Shown here in pieces: positions 5,727 to 24,370 of a stretch of 27,922 nucleotides of DNA; position 1 is the stretch's first letter; each line of letters begins with the position of its first letter. The notes beneath the pieces are model-generated. The model was not told the DNA's origin, ran no database searches, and saw nothing but the letters and a program-made list of their open reading frames with translations. This stretch comes from a virus, in the IMG/VR virus record IMGVR_UViG_3300044701_000182, positions 1-27,922 of that record. One strand, written 5' to 3'. The translations under genes were made by a program, and so were the position numbers.

Positions 5727-6164
5727 ATGTCTACAAATTGGGTACAAGATATCGCGGATATGCACCAGAAATACGGTGTAAATCCTGTTGTTAGAAACTT
5801 CGATAAAGATAAATTGGAAGCATTTCTAAAATTTCGAATTGACTTTCTTCAAGAAGAACTAGATGAAATGCGCAATGCGGTGGCCAATCGTCAAGCATCA
5901 GCTCTTGATACTGCTAACGCGTCAGACGATGTAGTTGATGCTTTAATCGACTTGTGTGTTGTTGCTATTGGAACACTCGATGCATTTGATGTAAATGCTT
6001 ATGAAGCTTGGGACCGAGTTCATAAAGCCAATATGAATAAAGAAGTTGGTGTTAAAGCATCAAGACCGAATCCTCTAGGTTTACCAGATTTAATTAAACC
6101 TGAAGGCTGGGTTGCTCCTACACATAAAGATAACTTAGGATTGGTGACCAAGGCTTTGTCATGA
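5727..6164 (+). CDS. MazG/HisE-like all-alpha NTP pyrophosphohydrolase
   Basis: A 145-aa all-helical protein carrying the metal-binding pattern of the MazG/dUTPase-like NTP pyrophosphatase superfamily: EELDE (residues 43-47), then DDVVDALIDLCVVAIGTL (67-84). The tail with KANMNKEVG and LIKPEGWVAP is typical of phage MazG-like proteins. These enzymes hydrolyse NTPs or dNTPs to NMP and pyrophosphate. T4 excludes cytosine from its DNA with gp56, an all-alpha dCTPase/dUTPase. This gene, in a phage that also has a dCMP hydroxymethylase, is the best candidate in the window for that role. ppGpp or other nucleotide substrates are alternatives. It has its own promoter and an AAAGGAG site, and its end overlaps the primase start by four bases. 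Confidence 0.85.
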   Translation: MSTNWVQDIADMHQKYGVNPVVRNFDKDKLEAFLKFRIDFLQEELDEMRNAVANRQASALDTANASDDVVDALIDLCVVAIGTLDAFDVNAYEAWDRVHKANMNKEVGVKASRPNPLGLPDLIKPEGWVAPTHKDNLGLVTKALS

Positions 6165-7646: not shown

Positions 7647-7653
7647 GGACACT

Positions 7654-8037
7654 ATGACTAATCAATTCACCCGTGCATCTGCGAATGTACTTCTTGAAGC
7701 AGCTGAACTTCAAGAACGAAAGGGACGCGACTATCAGAATCCTATGAGTCGCGTTCGTCAGGCTGACTACTATCCTAATGGCGTGTGGTCTATCTTAGAC
7801 ATCATTAACGCCAAGTATCTCCGAATGGTGTCAGTGTTAGAGACTATGGAACAAGGTGGACAACCTAACTTTGAATCTATCGAAGATTCAGCTGTAGATC
7901 TCATCAACTATGCTTCATTCGCAGTGTCGTATATGCGAGGCGATATCGACGGACAAGACCCAGAGCGTGATATCTTCAATCGCAAAGGCCAAGAAAATCC
8001 CGCCCTTATTCCAGCTAAATTTCGTACAGCACGCTAA
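7654..8037 (+). CDS. Small nucleotide-modification-associated protein (DUF1599/Nmad1-like)
   Basis: A 127-aa helical protein with the run RKGRDYQNP (residues about 23-31), a central helix containing NAKYLRMVSVLE, and SIEDSAVDLINYASFAVSYM. This K-x-x-D-Y...K-x-x-R...D-x-x-x-D-x-x-N-Y pattern is what I associate with DUF1599, also called nucleotide modification associated domain 1; I could not verify the family match. The acidic helix is also reminiscent of MazG-type pyrophosphatases. The ATG at 7654 is chosen over an upstream in-frame ATG at 7603, because GAGGA at 7645-7649 precedes it and the upstream start would lie deep in the previous gene. It overlaps the dCMP hydroxymethylase start by one base (TAATG), which ties it to that pathway. 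Confidence 0.65.
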   Translation: MTNQFTRASANVLLEAAELQERKGRDYQNPMSRVRQADYYPNGVWSILDIINAKYLRMVSVLETMEQGGQPNFESIEDSAVDLINYASFAVSYMRGDIDGQDPERDIFNRKGQENPALIPAKFRTAR

Positions 8038-8777
8038 TGATACACACAACAATTCATGATATTCGAACCGAGTTTGCTATTCTTTATACTAAAGATAAGA
8101 CTGTAGTCGATAAGACTGGAGTAAAGACGCTTGAAATTATGAATGCATCTTTCATTGCAAGCGATCCACTTATCTTTGGTTCTGTTAATGAAGACTACGT
8201 TCGACGCGAACTCGAGTGGTATCTCAGCGAGTCGTTGAATGTAAATGACATCCCAGGTGAAACGCCGCAGATCTGGAAACAGGTCTCTGATAGAGATGGA
8301 TTCATCAATTCTAATTATGGTTGGTGTATCTTTTCATCAGAAAATAATGATCAGTTCTACCATGCAGTTACTGAATTAGAAAATAATCCAGATTCACGCC
8401 GTGCAGTCATGATCTATACTCGCCCTACTATGTGGGGTGACCATAACGAAAACGGACGATCCGACTTCATGTGTACTAATGCAGTACAGTACATGATCAG
8501 GGATAATAAAGTTAATGCATTGGTTCAGATGCGAAGCAACGACGTAGTATTCGGTTATCGCAATGATTACGCTTGGCAGTCTTATGTCCTTGATAAAGTG
8601 ATTGAGACACTTAAAGAACGTGGTAAACCATATGAGCGCGGTAAGATCTTTTGGAATGTTGGTTCACTCCACGTATATGAACGCCATTTTTATCTAGTAA
8701 ATCACTTTGCAAAGACTCGCGAAACTACTATCACCAAGGAAGAATATGATAAGCGATACGCTGTCGAAGTGGGATGA
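8037..8777 (+). CDS. 42: dCMP hydroxymethylase (T4 gp42 type)
   Basis: This enzyme converts dCMP to 5-hydroxymethyl-dCMP with methylenetetrahydrofolate; hm-dCTP then replaces dCTP in the phage genome. The 246-aa protein resembles T4 gp42, as I remember it, along its length: VVDKTGVKT near residue 23, DIPGETPQIW at 71-80, INSNYGW, NPDSRRAVMIYTRP, SDFMCTNAVQY and NVGSLHVYERHFYLV. The catalytic cysteine is C146. In the motif VVFGYRNDYAW, D177 stands where thymidylate synthases have the uracil-selecting Asn. That Asp is the cytosine-selecting residue of gp42 (D179 in T4), so this is a hydroxymethylase and not ThyA. It overlaps its neighbours on both sides. Confidence 0.95.
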   Translation: MIHTTIHDIRTEFAILYTKDKTVVDKTGVKTLEIMNASFIASDPLIFGSVNEDYVRRELEWYLSESLNVNDIPGETPQIWKQVSDRDGFINSNYGWCIFSSENNDQFYHAVTELENNPDSRRAVMIYTRPTMWGDHNENGRSDFMCTNAVQYMIRDNKVNALVQMRSNDVVFGYRNDYAWQSYVLDKVIETLKERGKPYERGKIFWNVGSLHVYERHFYLVNHFAKTRETTITKEEYDKRYAVEVG

Positions 8778-9204
8778 ACGGTACATGGATATTGCCAAGC
8801 GTATTGCAGCTTGGAGTAAAGATCCCAGCCGTAAGATTGGTGCTGTCGCTGTAGGATCTAAAGGACAGATTTTATCTCAGGGATATAATGGGTTTCCTCG
8901 TGGTATACTTGACAGCACTGAGCGTTATGATAATCGCGAACGTAAATACCAATTAGTAGTTCATGCAGAAATGAACGTCATCTTCAATGCTACATTCAAT
9001 GGAGTATCGTTGGATGGCGCTTCGTTATATGTGTATGGTCTACCCGTTTGTTCAGAGTGCTCAAAAGGTATCATACAAGTCGGCGTAAAACGAGTAGTTA
9101 TTCTTACTGATGATGCTGTTCCAGATATCTGGACTAACTCATTTAAGATTACATCAGAGATGCTATCAGAAGCTGGAGTAGAATGGCAATGGGTTCAGAC
9201 TTAA
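8746..9204 (+). CDS. cd: dCMP (deoxycytidylate) deaminase
   Basis: This enzyme deaminates dCMP to dUMP, the substrate of thymidylate synthase (ThyX is encoded at 23681). The zinc-dependent deaminase motifs are present: H73-A-E75 (VVHAEMNV) and P-V-C102-S-E-C105, together with DPSRKIGAVAV and YNGFPRG typical of deoxycytidylate deaminases. The start at 8746 gives 152 aa and is set by AAGGAAGA at 8736-8743; an upstream in-frame ATG at 8707 has no comparable site. It overlaps the hydroxymethylase gene by 32 bases, so the two enzymes that compete for dCMP are co-translated. T4 Cd is longer (about 193 aa). Confidence 0.93.
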   Translation: MISDTLSKWDERYMDIAKRIAAWSKDPSRKIGAVAVGSKGQILSQGYNGFPRGILDSTERYDNRERKYQLVVHAEMNVIFNATFNGVSLDGASLYVYGLPVCSECSKGIIQVGVKRVVILTDDAVPDIWTNSFKITSEMLSEAGVEWQWVQT

Positions 9205-9563
9205 AGATACTGATAATTGGAATGAATCCAAGTGGTCGAGATCTAAAACATAAAAAAGGTCCAACACTTACTAAACTAGAATCATGGATGGATTCCATTG
9301 GAGTCCATCATTTTTCTTTTATGAATACTTTCGACAAGCCAGGTAAAGCAAAAAAAGCTAATGTTGACATAAACAGATTATGTAAAATAACTAAAGAGTA
9401 TAGTAAAATACTAGCACTAGGTGGCTTTGTTTCTGAAACACTAAATACACTTAATGTTTCGCACTTTAAATTACCTCATCCATCTCCTTTGAATAGATTA
9501 TTGAACGATAAGCACTATGAAAAGCAAATACTATCTAAATGTAAGGACTATTTAAATGATTGA
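9183..9563 (+). CDS. Uracil-DNA-glycosylase-superfamily protein
   Basis: A 126-aa single-domain protein with the UDG-superfamily landmarks in order: a strand ending in IIGMNPSG (residues 11-18, motif A), FSFMNTF (45-50), a central strand and helix ILALGGFVSETL (76-87), and LPHPSPLNR (97-105, motif B with the H-P-S-P loop). Motif A has N15 where many active families have an Asp or Glu near PG, so activity could be altered. The gene overlaps dCMP deaminase by 22 bases and the glycosyltransferase by eight bases. It may remove uracil, act on unmodified or modified bases, or simply bind DNA as part of the modification pathway. Starts at 9183 and 9189 are both possible; GGAG at 9175-9178 sits upstream. 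Confidence 0.72.
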   Translation: MAMGSDLKILIIGMNPSGRDLKHKKGPTLTKLESWMDSIGVHHFSFMNTFDKPGKAKKANVDINRLCKITKEYSKILALGGFVSETLNTLNVSHFKLPHPSPLNRLLNDKHYEKQILSKCKDYLND

Positions 9564-10374
9564 GCACATTATAATTCCAACTCTTGGTCGTATGGATAAG
9601 CAGATCACATACAATAATCTACCCAAGAAATACCAAGACATTACTAAATTTGTAGTTCAAGCTCATGAATTTGAGGAAATGGATAGCCGTTACTTAGGTA
9701 AAGTGTTGTGTCTTCCTAAAGAAATCAACCGTATCGCACCTACGCGCGAGTGGATCTTTAATAAGTTCAAGGACTGCGACCATATGGTATTCGACGACGA
9801 TCTAGACTTCGTCGTTAAAGAACCTAATGAAGGTGGCGAAACTAAGTGGAAGAGCCGTAAGTTTACTGAGCAGGACTTCGACGATGCTTTTAATCTAATG
9901 AATGCTTGGATCGACGAAGGTATCGCTTATGGTGGTCTTCTTCCTGCGTGGGTTATTCCCGACGTAAAGCAGTGGCCTGTACGCGAGAATCAGAGGATCA
10001 TGACCAATGTATTCTACAGCGGTAAGAAGATTCCTCGTGATATCCAATGGAATCGAGTCGTAGCCGCGGAAGACTTCGACGTCAACTTGCAGTTGCTGTC
10101 ACGAGGATTTAAGAATCGTATCAGTGCTAAGTATATGGTAACGTGTTCTGAAACAAATGCCGCTGGTGGTTGTTCTACTTGGCGCACTCTAGAAGTACAT
10201 AATGAAGCTCAGCGTAGACTCGCTGAACTCTGGCCAGACTTTATCGCTGTTCGTGAAAAGAAAGTTACGTCGGGTCCTTGGAAAGGACAGATTAAGTTGG
10301 CCACAACGATCCAGCACAAGAAAGCTTATGAGTCTTCACAGAAAGAACAATCATTGGAGACTTTCTTTGATTAA
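9556..10374 (+). CDS. GT-A-fold glycosyltransferase, probable DNA base glycosyltransferase
   Basis: A 272-aa protein with a GT-A (family-2-like) layout: an N-terminal nucleotide-binding strand IIIPTLGR (5-12), INRIAPTREWIF (58-68), a metal/nucleotide DxD-type motif FDDDLDF (79-85), and a late acidic motif AAEDFDVNLQLLSRG where GT-A enzymes keep the catalytic base. It resembles the phage 'TET-associated glycosyltransferase' type described from comparative genomics; that label is my recollection, not a search result. It lies in the overlapping cluster with dCMP hydroxymethylase, so the most economical role is transfer of a sugar to hydroxymethylcytosine in DNA, as T4 alpha- and beta-glucosyltransferases do with an unrelated fold. 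The C-terminal EQSLETFFD resembles a clamp-binding peptide and the polymerase tail (ATLEDFFA). Confidence 0.75.
   Translation: MIEHIIIPTLGRMDKQITYNNLPKKYQDITKFVVQAHEFEEMDSRYLGKVLCLPKEINRIAPTREWIFNKFKDCDHMVFDDDLDFVVKEPNEGGETKWKSRKFTEQDFDDAFNLMNAWIDEGIAYGGLLPAWVIPDVKQWPVRENQRIMTNVFYSGKKIPRDIQWNRVVAAEDFDVNLQLLSRGFKNRISAKYMVTCSETNAAGGCSTWRTLEVHNEAQRRLAELWPDFIAVREKKVTSGPWKGQIKLATTIQHKKAYESSQKEQSLETFFD
10356..10359 (+). promoter_or_regulatory. Ribosome binding site deciding a TTG start
   Basis: GGAG lies seven bases before the TTG at 10367 and inside the 3' end of the glycosyltransferase gene. It supports a TTG start for the next gene instead of the long upstream extension from 10202, which would overlap by more than 170 bases, or the later ATG at 10421. 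Confidence 0.6.
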
Positions 10375-11554
10375 GCATGCATCTATAGTTCCATTAATTG
10401 GAGGAGAGACTATAGGTCAGATGAATGCTTTTGGATCTCGGCCTGACTATCTCTTGTCGTACTCGCCATTCTCTAGTAACGACTCCCATCTCGTTAATTA
10501 TCTTAAAGATGTTCCTTATATTCTATTAGATCAGGGTGGGAAACATCCACATCCGGTGAACGTAGTTAACGCAGTATGTCCATGTGCTGGGTTGAGTTCT
10601 CTGTCACCTAGTGCAAACTCAGAAGCTTCAGCAAACGACTGGATGACGACCACCGCGAAGTACGTATTGGAAGAGATGAAGCCAGAAGTATTCTGGGGAG
10701 AGAACGCGCCTCGATTTGCTGGTGAGATGGGTAAACCTGTAGTAGCTAAACTACATGCTATAGCTCAAGAGAATGGTTACACGATGTCTGTGTATAGGAC
10801 TAAGTCACTACTACACGGGCTGTCGCAGGTGCGGGAGCGTAGTTTCTACTTCTTTTGGCGCGGTGATCAAGTACCAGTGTTCGAATACTTCGACAAACCA
10901 CGACAGCCGATCGAAAAATTATTCGCTACTATAGATAATAACTCAACTCAACAAGATCTGGTTAATGCAAAGGTTCCTAGTCGGGACGATCCATATTATC
11001 GTTATGTGCTTGAAGTGATACACGGTGGAATAAGCCATCGTGAATTCTTTGACAAGATAGAAAAGTCCTGCGACACTATGGGTTATCTAGAGTCTAATGG
11101 GCACAACTATAGGATGGTAAAGAAGTTCTTTGAGAAAGAAGGCTACGAGAACTTAGCCGCTAAGATGGATAATATCCAAGATAAACTAGACGCTGGTGGT
11201 AACATCATGCGTCGTACTTCGTATATTCCAAAGGACTATATCGGTGCTTTCGTCGGTCATCTCCCAACTCTCATGACCCATCCACAAGAGGACAGATACT
11301 TAAGTTATAGAGAGTGTATGACTATCATGGGTCTACCACAAGACTTTCAGATGTTGAACCCAAGTAGGAATCTAAATCATGTATGTCAAAATGTTCCAGT
11401 TGGTACAGCTACAGACATGGCCAATGAGATCAAAGCCGTCTTAGATGGTAAGCGAGAAATGAAGCGTAGTACCCTACTGTATCAATTCAACCATCAGAAG
11501 AAGTACGAGATACGAGATCCTGAGCCAGTAAGTAGTCTAGAATCCTTCATCTGA
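10367..11554 (+). CDS. C5-cytosine-methyltransferase-like protein
   Basis: A 395-aa protein that keeps most landmarks of DNA (cytosine-5) methyltransferases. Counting from the TTG, these are a glycine-rich start IVPLIGGETIG (motif I position), P72-C73-A-G-L-S (motif IV with the catalytic Cys), E112-N-A (motif VI, normally ENV), Q154-x-R156-x-R158 (motif VIII), SYRECMTIMGLPQDF (motif IX/X region), and QNVPVGTATDMANEI (motif X, normally GNAVP). Motif I lacks the usual FAGIGG and the acidic residue that binds the AdoMet ribose is not obvious, so cofactor use may differ. It overlaps the glycosyltransferase by eight bases and is the last gene before the terminator. It may methylate cytosine, or have been recruited to flip and alter hydroxymethylcytosine. 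The C-terminal SSLESFI again looks like a clamp-binding tail. Confidence 0.78.
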   Translation: MIKHASIVPLIGGETIGQMNAFGSRPDYLLSYSPFSSNDSHLVNYLKDVPYILLDQGGKHPHPVNVVNAVCPCAGLSSLSPSANSEASANDWMTTTAKYVLEEMKPEVFWGENAPRFAGEMGKPVVAKLHAIAQENGYTMSVYRTKSLLHGLSQVRERSFYFFWRGDQVPVFEYFDKPRQPIEKLFATIDNNSTQQDLVNAKVPSRDDPYYRYVLEVIHGGISHREFFDKIEKSCDTMGYLESNGHNYRMVKKFFEKEGYENLAAKMDNIQDKLDAGGNIMRRTSYIPKDYIGAFVGHLPTLMTHPQEDRYLSYRECMTIMGLPQDFQMLNPSRNLNHVCQNVPVGTATDMANEIKAVLDGKREMKRSTLLYQFNHQKKYEIRDPEPVSSLESFI

Positions 11555-11575
11555 TCGCCCTTCGGGGCGATTTTT
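11554..11575 (+). terminator. Rho-independent terminator after the replication/modification block
   Basis: A 7-bp perfect stem ATCGCCC / GGGCGAT closes a TTCG tetraloop (11561-11564) and is followed by TTTTT (11571-11575). It begins in the stop codon of the methyltransferase-like gene and lies directly before a late promoter, marking the boundary between early/middle and late genes. Confidence 0.93.
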
Positions 11576-12691: not shown

Positions 12692-13921
12692 ATGTTAAAA
12701 CTAAAAGAATTCTTAACTGAAGAAAAAAATGTGCACATGGAGCACATTGAAGACCTCGTATTCAACGAAGGTGTAGAAGGTACTCGTAAAGCCATTAACT
12801 TCTTACGAGACCTGCGCGATATGTTGGCAGGTCATAGTACAGATAAGCTAGCCACTACTGTAAAGTGGGATGGAGCTCCAGCTATATTCGCAGGTGTGGA
12901 CCCTCGAGACGATAAGTTCTTTGTTGCTAAGAAGGGTATCTTTAATAAAGATCCAAAGGTATATAAGACTGAAGCCGACATCAACGCTGATCTCACGGGT
13001 GATCTAGCAGCAAAATTTAAAGTAGCGCTACAACAATTATCAAATCTAGGAATCACTTCAGGGGTGTATCAAGGTGACCTGATGTTCACCAACGACAAGA
13101 AGATCGAGACTATAGATGGTAAGAAGTATGTGACTTTTCATCCTAACACCATTGTCTACGCAGTACCATATGACTCTGAACTAGGGCGAAGAATACGTGG
13201 ATGCAAGATTGGAGTGGTATGGCACACCACCTATACCGGTGATTCGTTTGAGAATATGAGGGCTACATTTGGCGAACCAATAGCCAGCAAGTTTAAGAAA
13301 CTACCATACGTATGGGTAGACGACGCCACCTATAAAGATTATTCTGGATCAGCTACTTTTACTGCAGCAGAAACGAACGAAGTAACTCAAGTTCTATCAA
13401 GAGTTGGTAGTTTATTTAATTCTGTCGCAGCTAGAACTCTAAACGCTATCAGCGAAGACGAAGATCTACTAACAGCTGTAAAGACTTTTAATAATTCCAA
13501 GATACGCAAAGGTGAGACTATCACCAACACACGTAAACACGTTAAAGAATTATTCGACTATATCCATGATAAGTATCAGGCAGATGTAGACAGCAAGAAG
13601 ACTCCTGCTGGGAAACAGAAAGCAGAACAACGCAAGACAAAGGTGATGCAGTTCTTTGCACATCACGACATGAACCAGATAGTGTCCATATTCGATATAG
13701 TATTACTACTCACTCAGGCAAAACAGCTCATCATCAATAAGATGAATAGTGTAAGTAACATATCAACCTTTATACGTACAGCGAATGGATTCAGGATTAC
13801 TGGTGTCGAGGGATACGTTGCTATAGACAAATTAAATGGTGGAGCAGTTAAGATAGTAGATCGTATGGAATTTTCTAAGTCTAACTTCTCGGCAGACGTT
13901 ATAAAGGGATGGCAGAGATGA
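12692..13921 (+). CDS. Nucleotidyltransferase/ligase-fold-like late protein with capsid-targeting-like N-terminus
   Basis: A 409-aa protein. The N-terminus MLKLKEFLTEE resembles the capsid-targeting sequence of T4 internal proteins. The body shows landmarks of covalent nucleotidyltransferases (DNA/RNA ligases): K58-W-D-G61 (motif I, KxDG, in TTVKWDGAPAIFAG), GVYQGDLMF as a possible motif III, E373-G-Y-V376 (motif IV) and AVKIVDR with K387 (motif V). A helical insert of about 100 residues (about 255-355) separates the early and late motifs. Cyanophage relatives are usually annotated only as a DUF family (DUF6267, from memory). If the motifs are real, this is a late, possibly head-packaged ligase or adenylyltransferase. 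If only KWDG is conserved, it may be a structural relic. It overlaps the next gene (ATGA). Confidence 0.75.
   Translation: MLKLKEFLTEEKNVHMEHIEDLVFNEGVEGTRKAINFLRDLRDMLAGHSTDKLATTVKWDGAPAIFAGVDPRDDKFFVAKKGIFNKDPKVYKTEADINADLTGDLAAKFKVALQQLSNLGITSGVYQGDLMFTNDKKIETIDGKKYVTFHPNTIVYAVPYDSELGRRIRGCKIGVVWHTTYTGDSFENMRATFGEPIASKFKKLPYVWVDDATYKDYSGSATFTAAETNEVTQVLSRVGSLFNSVAARTLNAISEDEDLLTAVKTFNNSKIRKGETITNTRKHVKELFDYIHDKYQADVDSKKTPAGKQKAEQRKTKVMQFFAHHDMNQIVSIFDIVLLLTQAKQLIINKMNSVSNISTFIRTANGFRITGVEGYVAIDKLNGGAVKIVDRMEFSKSNFSADVIKGWQR
13904..13909 (+). promoter_or_regulatory. Ribosome binding site deciding the start at 13918
   Basis: AAGGGA lies eight bases before the ATG at 13918. The alternative ATG at 13909 begins on this site and so is unlikely to be used. 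The choice leaves MIRFKEYIAES as the exact N-terminus. Confidence 0.55.
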
Positions 13922-14418: not shown

Positions 14419-14444
14419 TAGAACCAACTAAATTGATGGATAAA

Positions 14445-16580
14445 ATGAAAAGATATCGTCAGCTCGTTAAAGAGCTACCTTCTAAGAAAATAGTGTTTGC
14501 CTTTGGTAGGTTTCAACCACCTACAACGGGCCACGAGCTATTGGTCAACGCCGTCAAGAGAATAGCTGCCGCTCAGAAGGCAGACCACGTTATCTATGCT
14601 TCTCGTACTCACGACAAGAAGTCAAATCCTCTTCCAGTAGACAGAAAGGTCTATTATCTCAAGAGGATGTTCCCAAATACTAATTTTGCAGCAGCTAGCG
14701 ACGAGATTCGTACGTTTCTAGAGGCCGCTGCGACTCTGTCCAATACATACAAGAATGTGGTCATGATCGCTGGATCAGACAGAGTTCCCGAATATAAACG
14801 ACTGTTAGATAGATATAATGGTGATCTATTTAAATTCGACACGATAGAAGTTGTATCAGCTGGAGAACGTGATCCAGACTCAGACAGCGCTACAGGTATG
14901 TCTGGCACAAAGATGCGAGAAGCTGCCAAGAAAGGCGACTTCCAGTCCTTTAAGAAAGGTCTACCTCATACTCTAACGGAACTGGACGGAAAGCGTCTGA
15001 TGAACGAGGTCCGTGCTGGTATGGGTATGGCGGCTATAAAAGAAGAGATTAAGTTTGCGGTCAATACGATTCGCGAACAGTATCACGCAGGAAAGATTTT
15101 TAATGTAGGTGATAGAGTTACTGATGGTGAAATTGTTTATGAGATCTTAGATCGTGGAGCAAATTATGTAACGGTAGTGAACGAATCTGGAGATACTAGT
15201 AAGAAGTGGCTTGACTCAGTTCAGCCAATCAACGTTCATCTCGACGAAGATATTCCAGCAGGTCCTACCCCATCTGAGATTACGTATAAAGGTTATACCA
15301 CTAAGAACCTACATCATTCTGAAGACGCTCGAAAAGCTTTTGCGATGACTATTCAGAGAGCTTCTGAGGGTAAGGTGACAGATCCAATGGGTGTGTTAAA
15401 TGCTTTAAAAGCAACAGATACATACATGGGTTTAAATGACAGACACCTTACAGGCGAAGAAGTAACAGAAGAAGAGAAAAAGGCTTGGATAGAAGCGCAT
15501 TATAAAGCTAGAGAATCTCTTAATAGAATTGGCGAGTTCATGCATCACATGGACTATTGGCACATGCACGAACATGAGCTACAAGACGTAATGAGCACAT
15601 ACGGACAAGAAGGTCCTGAAGAAGATACTTTTGGAGAAGCTGTGGAACAACTAAAAGAAATGAAATTCAGCCCAGCTGATAAGATAAAAGTTGCGCGCAT
15701 CATAGCGTCTACTTTAGGCGACGACAAAGCCGACGAGAAGAGTGGACCAGAGAATATGGTCAATATGGCTTTGCGTAAAGTTAAAAATAAACCCATGACC
15801 AAAGACGCATGGAAGATACTTGGCAATATGCTAGATATAGCTCGTGAAGCTGGAATTAAGTACGACGAAAAAATTATTGGTGGTAAAGTGGCTATGGCTG
15901 AAGCTGAGACTAAAGGAAAAGGAATTGCGATTCCAGCTAAAGATGAGAGCGACGACGAAGAAACAACCATACAGATCGTCGCAGCACCAGGTCACACTCT
16001 AGCAAAAGGCGAAGCAGATCAAGTTAGAAAAATGAAGATCAAGCATCATCTAGGTGAAGAAAAAGAAGACGACGAAGATGAAGACATGGGTGAAGACGAT
16101 GTCGATGATATGTTGAAGGGATTCCAAGACGACGACGCGTTTGAAGCATACGAAGATGATGAGTTCCATTTAGAAGATGAAGACACCGGTGAAAAGCTTG
16201 AAGAACTTCAGAAAGAAGAAGTTATCAATGAAGTGCTGTCACGACTAGAAAGAATTAAAGCAAAAGCTAGATTCAAGCGCACCGAAGCTAAGCGCGAGCG
16301 CAGAGTAAAGATCGCACTTAAGATGAGATCTTCAAATAAGACTTTAAACAATAGAGCTCGTAAACTCGCTATTACACTCATGAAGAAACGTATAGGCAAG
16401 AAAGATCCAAGTAAGATGAGTGTAGCTGAGAAAGAAAGAGTCGAAAGAATGGTTCATCGCCGCAAGACTGCGATCAATCGTATCGCTATGAAATTAGTGC
16501 CTAGACTTCGTAAGATAGAGAATAATAGACTAACTGGTAAACATACTAAGTCATCACCTTCTGCTGGAGTAGTGGCATGA
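14445..16580 (+). CDS. Cytidylyltransferase-like nucleotidyltransferase fused to a long modular tail
   Basis: A 711-aa late protein. Residues 15-170 form an NMNAT/cytidylyltransferase-type Rossmann domain: GRFQPPTTGH (21-30, the HxGH-type motif with T28-G-H30) and MSGTKMREA (152-160, in place of ISSTxxR). About 218-258 is a KOW/Tudor-like segment (NVGDRVTDGEIVYEILDRGANYVTVV is the region) common in phage modular proteins. About 265-400 is helical and His-rich. About 410-480 repeats a helical module ending in EAGIKYDEKI. About 500-585 is very acidic (runs of D and E) and about 590-700 very basic. Such fusions are known from marine T4-like phages and annotated as cytidylyltransferase, with unknown substrate. 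The acid/base tail and late position fit a packaged, DNA-associated protein. Starts at 14433 (TTG) and 14436 are alternatives; TGGA before 14445 favours this one. Confidence 0.82.
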   Translation: MKRYRQLVKELPSKKIVFAFGRFQPPTTGHELLVNAVKRIAAAQKADHVIYASRTHDKKSNPLPVDRKVYYLKRMFPNTNFAAASDEIRTFLEAAATLSNTYKNVVMIAGSDRVPEYKRLLDRYNGDLFKFDTIEVVSAGERDPDSDSATGMSGTKMREAAKKGDFQSFKKGLPHTLTELDGKRLMNEVRAGMGMAAIKEEIKFAVNTIREQYHAGKIFNVGDRVTDGEIVYEILDRGANYVTVVNESGDTSKKWLDSVQPINVHLDEDIPAGPTPSEITYKGYTTKNLHHSEDARKAFAMTIQRASEGKVTDPMGVLNALKATDTYMGLNDRHLTGEEVTEEEKKAWIEAHYKARESLNRIGEFMHHMDYWHMHEHELQDVMSTYGQEGPEEDTFGEAVEQLKEMKFSPADKIKVARIIASTLGDDKADEKSGPENMVNMALRKVKNKPMTKDAWKILGNMLDIAREAGIKYDEKIIGGKVAMAEAETKGKGIAIPAKDESDDEETTIQIVAAPGHTLAKGEADQVRKMKIKHHLGEEKEDDEDEDMGEDDVDDMLKGFQDDDAFEAYEDDEFHLEDEDTGEKLEELQKEEVINEVLSRLERIKAKARFKRTEAKRERRVKIALKMRSSNKTLNNRARKLAITLMKKRIGKKDPSKMSVAEKERVERMVHRRKTAINRIAMKLVPRLRKIENNRLTGKHTKSSPSAGVVA

Positions 16581-23680: not shown

Positions 23681-24370
23681 GTGCAAGTCAAATTAGTTTC
23701 ATATTCAAAACCTTCTAGAGATCTAGTCAATGAAGGATTGTACGACGTCCAGGAACTTATAGCATACTGCGCGCGTGTTTCAAATCCTTCTAACCAATTT
23801 AACACTGAGACTTCTGAGAAGTTAATTAATTATCTAGTTAAACATCAACATTGGTCTCCACTAGAGATGGTCTCTGCCTGTTTAGAGATCGTAACTACTA
23901 GAGACATCGCCCGGCAGATTCTACGCCATCGTTCTTTTTCTTTTCAAGAATTCTCTCAACGGTATGCTGATCCCACTGCTGAGTTGAGCGAAGCTTTTGT
24001 TACTCGTGAAGCAAGATTTCAAGACACTAAGAATCGTCAGAATTCTATTGAGATAGACTACAATGACGAAGCTCAGCGTATGCTTGCAATCGAATGGGAA
24101 CGAGCTCAGAAGCGAGTGTTGTTCGCCGTTGAGAGAGAATACAAGTGGGCTATAGCGAATGGTATTGCTAAGGAACAAGCCCGTGCAGTGCTACCTGAAG
24201 GACTTACTGTTTCACGCATGTATATGAATGGAACTCTTCGTAGTTGGATTCACTTTATTCAACTGCGTTCTGGTAATGGTACTCAAAAAGAACATCGTCT
24301 GATAGCACTAGAATGTGCTAAGGTTATAGCAGAGATCTTTCCTCTCGCTGAGCAATATATAACAGATTAA
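23681..24370 (+). CDS. thyX: Flavin-dependent thymidylate synthase ThyX
   Basis: This enzyme makes dTMP from dUMP with FAD, NADPH and methylenetetrahydrofolate, releasing tetrahydrofolate. The 229-aa protein has the ThyX signature R82-H-R-S-F-S-F-Q-E-F-S-Q-R-Y95 (family pattern RHRxxSxxxxSxRY) and a C-terminal substrate/flavin segment (ARAVLPEGLTVSRMYMNGTL, RSWIHFIQLRSGNGTQKEHR). The start is GTG at 23681 with GGAG at 23671-23674 six bases upstream. T4 carries the unrelated ThyA (td) instead. Because ThyX does not produce dihydrofolate, the phage has less need of a DHFR. It has its own promoter and leads the dNTP-synthesis block; dUMP comes from the dCMP deaminase at 8746. Confidence 0.96.
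   Translation: MQVKLVSYSKPSRDLVNEGLYDVQELIAYCARVSNPSNQFNTETSEKLINYLVKHQHWSPLEMVSACLEIVTTRDIARQILRHRSFSFQEFSQRYADPTAELSEAFVTREARFQDTKNRQNSIEIDYNDEAQRMLAIEWERAQKRVLFAVEREYKWAIANGIAKEQARAVLPEGLTVSRMYMNGTLRSWIHFIQLRSGNGTQKEHRLIALECAKVIAEIFPLAEQYITD

Follow-up and report, generated by a model that had tools for sequence, protein, structure and literature searches.

The DNA analysed here (the window) is a 27.9-kb virus fragment, positions 1 to 27,922 of IMG/VR record IMGVR_UViG_3300044701_000182, and carries a compact cassette of five overlapping genes on the plus strand that is predicted to make and decorate 5-hydroxymethylcytosine (5hmC) in phage DNA. The window has T4-like character, as seen from its DNA polymerase (phrog_262), UvsX-like recombinase, DnaB-like helicase, ThyX and ribonucleotide reductase, and its source is an uncultured, probably marine phage. 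The five genes encode a dCMP 5-hydroxymethylase of the T4 gp42 type (gene 1, 8037-8777), a dCMP deaminase (gene 2, 8746-9204), a small putative member of the uracil-DNA glycosylase (UDG) superfamily (gene 3, 9189-9563, or from 9183), a TAGT-family DNA glycosyltransferase (gene 4, 9556-10374) and a protein with the fold of the C5-methyltransferases (C5-MTases; gene 5, 10367-11554). Successive genes overlap by 32, 16, 8 and 8 nt, the second overlap becoming 22 nt if the upstream ATG of gene 3 is used. The likeliest start of gene 5 is the TTG at 10367, which has GGAG upstream; the open reading frame of 450 amino acids (10202-11554) found by mechanical listing starts too early, as the conserved protein begins at about 10367. 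The unit ends in a hairpin with a T-rich tail that resembles an intrinsic terminator (11553-11572, plus strand). As seven terminator-like sites were found in the window against 2.8 expected in shuffles, any single one of them is suggestive at most. The first-pass annotation of this DNA had described five overlapping genes at 8037-11554 followed by a terminator; the same reading frames and the same hairpin were recovered, and its family calls (thymidylate synthase-family enzyme with D177, dCMP deaminase, UDG superfamily, glycosyltransferase and C5-MTase) are borne out by Pfam, PHROG and structure comparison, with the UDG superfamily indicated by the modelled fold.

Gene 1 encodes a member of the thymidylate synthase family that is 59% identical to T4 gp42, and its closest solved structure is that of the T4 dCMP hydroxymethylase (1b49, E 8.5e-97). 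The catalytic cysteine C146, together with D177, R166, E58 and H212, is kept in all 67 distinct relatives, and the cytosine-selecting D177, which occupies the Asn177 position, aligns with the D179 region of T4 gp42. Enzymes of the thymidylate synthase family with aspartate at this position yield hydroxymethyl-dCMP (hmdCMP) and not dTMP, and from this family knowledge hmdCMP is the very probable product of gene 1. RB69 ORF048c has been given as a 5-hydroxy-dCMP synthase (PMC13390438), but such a function of gene 1 was rejected on its 24% identity to that protein against 59% to gp42.

Gene 2 is recognised as a dCMP deaminase by PF00383 (E 2.6e-20) and phrog_174 (E 1e-44). The cassette reaches further upstream, where a DUF1599-like 'nucleotide modification associated' protein (7648-8037, plus strand; PF07659 E 0.0066, below the cut-off; phrog_18404 'hydrolase', E 5e-16) has a stop codon sharing 1 nt with the hydroxymethylase start. 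An accessory MazG/PRA-PH-like NTP pyrophosphohydrolase (5727-6164, plus strand; PF01503 E 1.1e-7; phrog_671 E 1e-20), which also matches phrog_18404, is a candidate dCTP-removing enzyme. At a distance from the cassette, the flavin-dependent thymidylate synthase ThyX (23681-24370, plus strand; TIGR02170, 149 bits against a cut-off of 88; phrog_85 E 2e-72) could provide dTMP, thereby freeing the ThyA-type enzyme for dCMP. Contigs for which cytosine modification was demonstrated by experiment carry thymidylate synthase, PRA-PH and dCMP deaminase domains together (PMC8670742).

Co-inheritance of the cassette genes

In scans of IMG/VR, 25 loci were found with the C5-MTase-like protein as query and 34 with TAGT. 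The alignment of the C5-MTase-like protein brought in at least 546 relatives, and 80 of these were retrieved. Gene presence was counted in the 77 loci whose sequence extends 3.5 kb or more upstream of the C5-MTase-like gene. A hydroxymethylase gene lies upstream in 73 of these, and the deaminase is present in 67, the MazG-like gene in 54, the DUF1599-like gene in 53 and the UDG-like gene in 27. Three of the four loci lacking the hydroxymethylase (L097, L120 and L135) begin at contig ends, and in the fourth (L132) a thymidylate synthase-family gene lies just beyond the fetched stretch. Among contigs binned with bacterial genomes, all eight having at least 4.6 kb upstream contain the hydroxymethylase. 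The first-pass annotation had described the five genes as one translationally coupled unit, to be refuted if a survey showed no co-inheritance. In the present survey co-inheritance is upheld for the hydroxymethylase, the deaminase and the C5-MTase-like gene; the UDG-like gene, found in 27 of the 77 loci, is optional, and its role as an integral step is not supported.

The protein encoded by this optional gene consists of 124 amino acids, and its Pfam UDG score of 23.2 bits is below the cut-off of 24.3. Its AlphaFold2 (AF2) model (pLDDT 88) is nearest to a family-4 UDG (4zbx, VIA Z 11.0) and UdgX, followed by TDG/MUG (1mug, Z 9.7), and Foldseek returned no match to it with E < 0.001. The HPS and NR motifs are invariant, and PADLOC gave no match. 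Brig1 and Brig3, bacterial defence proteins of the UDG superfamily, excise glucosyl-5hmC or 5hmC. As such excisers exist, possible substrates of gene 3 include 5-hydroxymethyluracil (hmU) or uracil arising from deamination, or the DNA of competitors; tentatively, the protein is a base-excision accessory, for example for hmU or uracil.

Downstream of the cassette, a DUF6267 protein is encoded at 12692-13921, and a DUF6267 gene is also located 3' of the C5-MTase-like gene in several relatives (L002, L040 and L048). A cytidyltransferase-like protein is encoded nearby at 14433-16580.

TAGT and the exchangeable sugar genes

The gene directly 5' of the C5-MTase-like gene varies between several unrelated groups. 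The T4 DNA alpha-glucosyltransferase (AGT, PF11440; E 2.9e-75 for L015) is found in this slot in 44 loci, TAGT in 36, a phrog_14998 protein in 17, a phrog_13881 protein in 11, UDP-glucose dehydrogenase in 8 and UDP-galactopyranose mutase in 7, along with single cases of other glycosyltransferases or sugar-nucleotide enzymes. The sugar-nucleotide enzymes sit between the transferase-like gene and the C5-MTase-like gene, giving orders such as AGT then dehydrogenase, TAGT then epimerase then dehydrogenase, and phrog_14998 then mutase. When the slot types are mapped on a maximum-likelihood tree of 103 C5-MTase-like proteins, two outgroup rows included, at least 21 changes of type are needed against a minimum of 10, so that exchange at this position has been frequent. 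In 36 of the 38 loci that carry both TAGT and the C5-MTase-like gene, the two adjoin each other to within about 10 nt.

As the phrog_14998 and phrog_13881 clusters have no match in Pfam or NCBIfam, it is from their position that they would be called glycosyltransferases. In L126 (1515-7194) the order is hydroxymethylase, deaminase, UDG, epimerase, phrog_14998, mutase and C5-MTase-like gene. This order predicts UDP-galactofuranose and therefore a furanosyl modification, making galactofuranose the predicted DNA sugar of L126-type cassettes. A phrog_14998 gene followed by UDP-galactopyranose mutase also precedes the C5-MTase-like gene in L018, L119, L121, L138 and L141. In L115 (405-7188), L132 and L135 a nucleotide-sugar epimerase and UDP-glucose dehydrogenase come after an AGT or TAGT, and in L115 the deaminase and the UDG are moreover separated by a radical-SAM-like gene. 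The slot of L022/L025 (3136-6005), L159 and L162 contains an AGT-like gene, a PHROG match to phosphoheptose isomerase (family unclear) and a cytidylyltransferase, which suggests a CDP-activated group.

Gene 4 of the window is assigned to TAGT by PF20691 (76.1 bits against a cut-off of 27.5) and to phrog_842 (E 8e-41), the family of the beta-glucosyl-HMC-alpha-glucosyltransferase of T2/T6. Its aspartate-rich metal motif DDD (D80, D81 and D82) is present in all 27 relatives, and no credible relative was found by sequence search among solved structures. In the first-pass annotation it had been taken for a GT-A enzyme outside the T4 types; in fact it belongs to the T2/T6 family, and close relatives have the T4-type AGT in the same slot. 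No TET/JBP oxygenase, the source of the TAGT name, was found among the window proteins scanned against Pfam, where the only 2-oxoglutarate-Fe(II) oxygenase seen (2351-2932) is of the PF13640 type. The TAGT of T2/T6 is likewise not known to have an adjacent TET/JBP oxygenase, and its absence here is therefore not decisive for TAGT membership.

A 2026 survey found TAGT alone in 288 of 753 genomes and left the function of this 'solitary TAGT' open (PMC13216743). The relatives of the window are of the solitary type: a second transferase (AGT, PF11440) was sought and not found in six TAGT-bearing contigs of 22 to 114 kb, among them contigs of 71-114 kb, and in the same search two AGT-bearing contigs had no TAGT. 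From these sequences, gene 4 appears to encode the sole DNA glycosyltransferase of its phage. In Brevibacterium phage LuckyBarnes (L066, 4430-7594) and in ctUhy936 (L067, 5995-7775), TAGT lies beside a thymidylate synthase-family enzyme without Asp177 in the alignment, and TAGT is possibly acting there on 5-hydroxymethyluracil.

The C5-methyltransferase-fold protein

Gene 5 passes the Pfam cut-off for C5-MTases (PF00145, 55 bits against 22, E 1e-14), and its AF2 model (pLDDT 90) matches M.HaeIII, M.HhaI, DNMT1 and CmoX with Z of 24-26 (VIA Z 26.1 to M.HaeIII, 25-26 for M.HaeIII and M.HhaI together, 24.0 to the CmoX structure 8yf3). The catalytic residues Cys72, Glu111, Asn112, Arg155 and Arg157 are invariant in 106 distinct sequences; the protein thus has the fold and the PC, EN and QxRxR motifs of the C5-MTases, the first in the form CPC. 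However, several positions that contact S-adenosylmethionine (SAM) in C5-MTases are altered in it. The adenine-stacking Phe of motif I (FxGxG) is replaced by Val or Ile (residue 7) and the first Gly by Leu, each in 105 of the 106 sequences, and the Asn of motif X is replaced by Gln (Q340) in all of them. Motif I was located by the structure matches to M.HaeIII, M.HhaI and CmoX, whose first aligned residues agree on one register, and motif X by HMMER alignment to M.HaeIII and CmoX. The cofactor site seems remodelled, not decayed, since the replacing residues hardly vary, and because these SAM-contact motifs are altered we do not file the protein as a methyltransferase by function.

Distant forms of the protein exist in Pseudoalteromonas phage XG4, whose hydroxymethylase is 48% identical, and in cyanophage S-TIM5 and Bacillus phage G, whose thymidylate synthase-family enzymes have Asp at the Asn177 position. 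This pairing with dCMP-type enzymes across distant phages suggests that 5-substituted cytosine is what the C5-MTase-like protein acts on, or the reason why it acts. In one region of Bacillus phage G (L146, 1027-16218), two annotated alpha-glucosyltransferases, a thymidylate synthase with Asp177, a dCMP deaminase and the C5-MTase-like gp301 are found together, and this phage may carry modified cytosine.

Work cited in PMC11347137 reports that C5-MTases without SAM dehydroxymethylate 5hmC, which makes chemistry of the C5-MTase-like protein on a modified base plausible. We tentatively propose, as a conjecture that we would not expect to hold in full, that the protein carries out Cys/Glu chemistry on 5hmC or glycosyl-5hmC in place of ordinary SAM methylation, and that it is a common module behind various DNA sugars, including the predicted galactofuranose of L126.

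Proposed pathway and known systems

Taken together, we consider it probable that the locus is a modular cassette which makes and decorates 5hmC in phage DNA. The gp42-type enzyme would, very probably, convert dCMP into hmdCMP, to be incorporated instead of cytosine, while the MazG-like enzyme and the deaminase would deplete the dCTP and dCMP pools. TAGT would then place a sugar directly on 5hmC in DNA, since it is the only recognised DNA glycosyltransferase and AGT holds the same slot in sister phages. Less certainly, the C5-MTase-fold protein, whose pocket would be remodelled away from ordinary SAM use, might flip out the hydroxymethylated or glycosylated base and engage it covalently through Cys and Glu. 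For this last step an action on the modified base, for example taking off or exchanging its 5-substituent at particular sites or marking certain sites, is favoured over plain methylation of cytosine. The first two steps agree with the hydroxymethylation and glycosylation pathway of the first-pass annotation, in so far as gp42 identity, D177/C146 and TAGT membership indicate it.

Several observations weigh against this pathway. The gp1-type hmdCMP kinase (PF21448) was found in none of eight related contigs, all of them possibly incomplete, and the earlier description of the pathway as complete is therefore too strong. In T2/T6, TAGT adds the second glucose, onto alpha-glucosyl-5hmC, and not the first (PMC13390438, PMC13216743), and as the window is only a 28-kb fragment, an AGT may lie elsewhere in this phage. 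At the ribose-binding Glu position, where the alignment is less certain, the 106 C5-MTase-like sequences have Glu in 32, Ser in 37, Thr in 16 and other residues in the rest, and 90 of them retain Asp54, which lies close to the adenine-binding Asp; SAM binding may therefore persist despite the changed pocket. The surveyed loci come mostly from related lineages, so that the counts are not independent events.

It is possible, though in our judgement somewhat unlikely, that gene 5 is an ordinary SAM-dependent orphan C5-MTase for anti-restriction, which methylates cytosine not yet replaced or a specific motif and is linked to the hydroxymethylase by a shared purpose. The complete catalytic set, the full fold, the Pfam score and matches to PADLOC type II MTase models all agree with this. 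However, the motif I Phe, a Gly and the motif X Asn, which in M.HhaI and CmoX line the SAM site, have nearly always given way to other residues, the TIGR00675 score is 27 against a cut-off of 100.65, and little free cytosine would be left if hydroxymethylation is complete. That gene 5 adds a further group from another SAM-type cofactor, in the way that CmoX employs carboxy-SAM, we regard as unlikely. Arg350 of CmoX, at the position of the motif X Asn, contacts the carboxymethyl group (PMC12783734). Besides the structural match to CmoX, it is in keeping with such a cofactor that this selectivity residue (Asn304 in HhaI) is an invariant Gln in gene 5; but CmoX is defined by Arg and not by Gln at this position, carboxy-SAM synthase (CmoA, TIGR00740) was not found in the window or in the eight related contigs, and no other cofactor-making gene is constant. 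The carboxy-SAM route itself was rejected for the lack of CmoA and of Arg350.

Addition by TAGT of a second sugar to alpha-glucosylated 5hmC, the first transferase being encoded elsewhere in the genome, would follow the role of TAGT in T2/T6; it seems to us quite unlikely, as TAGT-bearing contigs of up to 114 kb have no PF11440 and as AGT and TAGT alternate in one slot. Very improbable is a cassette without any base modification, in which the first three genes serve dTMP/dCMP metabolism and the glycosyltransferase has a target other than DNA. Nucleotide genes do cluster in T4-like phages, which gives this no direct support, whereas a D177-type enzyme is known from its family to make hmdCMP and not dTMP, ThyX is present for dTMP, and the slot is exchanged with a DNA-specific transferase.

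The first-pass annotation had called the combination a candidate for an undescribed system. It is of a known kind, T-even 5hmC glycosylation, and its enzymes belong to known families. Its novelty lies in a modular arrangement of swappable sugar genes next to a constant partner with the C5-MTase fold, the cofactor site of which is unlike that of the methyltransferases compared. Among the freely accessible papers searched, none was found that describes this partner or DNA galactofuranosylation. The cassettes point to a widespread, mostly uncultured phage lineage with plug-in DNA sugar chemistry, in which the sugar genes are exchanged around a lasting core of 5hmC genes and the C5-MTase-like protein. 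They supply concrete candidates both for solving the 'solitary TAGT' problem and for DNA glycans of a new kind. The function of the C5-MTase-like protein, nearly always linked to 5hmC synthesis, becomes a directly testable question that bears on phage evasion of restriction, CRISPR and DNA-glycosylase defences and could yield new tools for 5hmC chemistry.

Among known systems, the T-even pathway (T4 gp42, AGT and BGT) shares with the window the gp42-type enzyme, the dCMP deaminase and an enzyme of the dCTP-removing type, as well as AGT in the sister slots. In contrast to T4, the window has TAGT in place of AGT/BGT, a single tight gene unit and the constant C5-MTase-fold partner, which T4 lacks. 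Gene 4 is in the same Pfam and PHROG family as the TAGT of T2/T6 but appears to be a sole transferase, and is about 25-31% identical to its matches in named phages. The MetaGPA 5hmC carbamoyltransferase clusters have the same scaffold of thymidylate synthase-family, PRA-PH and dCMP deaminase domains but are decorated by a carbamoyltransferase, and no C5-MTase-like partner is mentioned in the text searched. Brig1 and Brig3 resemble gene 3 in connecting a UDG fold with modified cytosine, although they are defence enzymes of bacteria and the phage protein is half their size. The DNA cytosine carboxymethyltransferase CmoX of Synechococcus phage S-B43 is, like gene 5, a C5-MTase fold repurposed by a phage for hypermodification. 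The two differ in that gene 5 has Gln for Arg350 in all 106 sequences, CPC in place of SPPC, and no CmoA; CmoX is linked to CmoA/CmoY, whereas gene 5 is linked to the hydroxymethylase and to glycosyltransferases.

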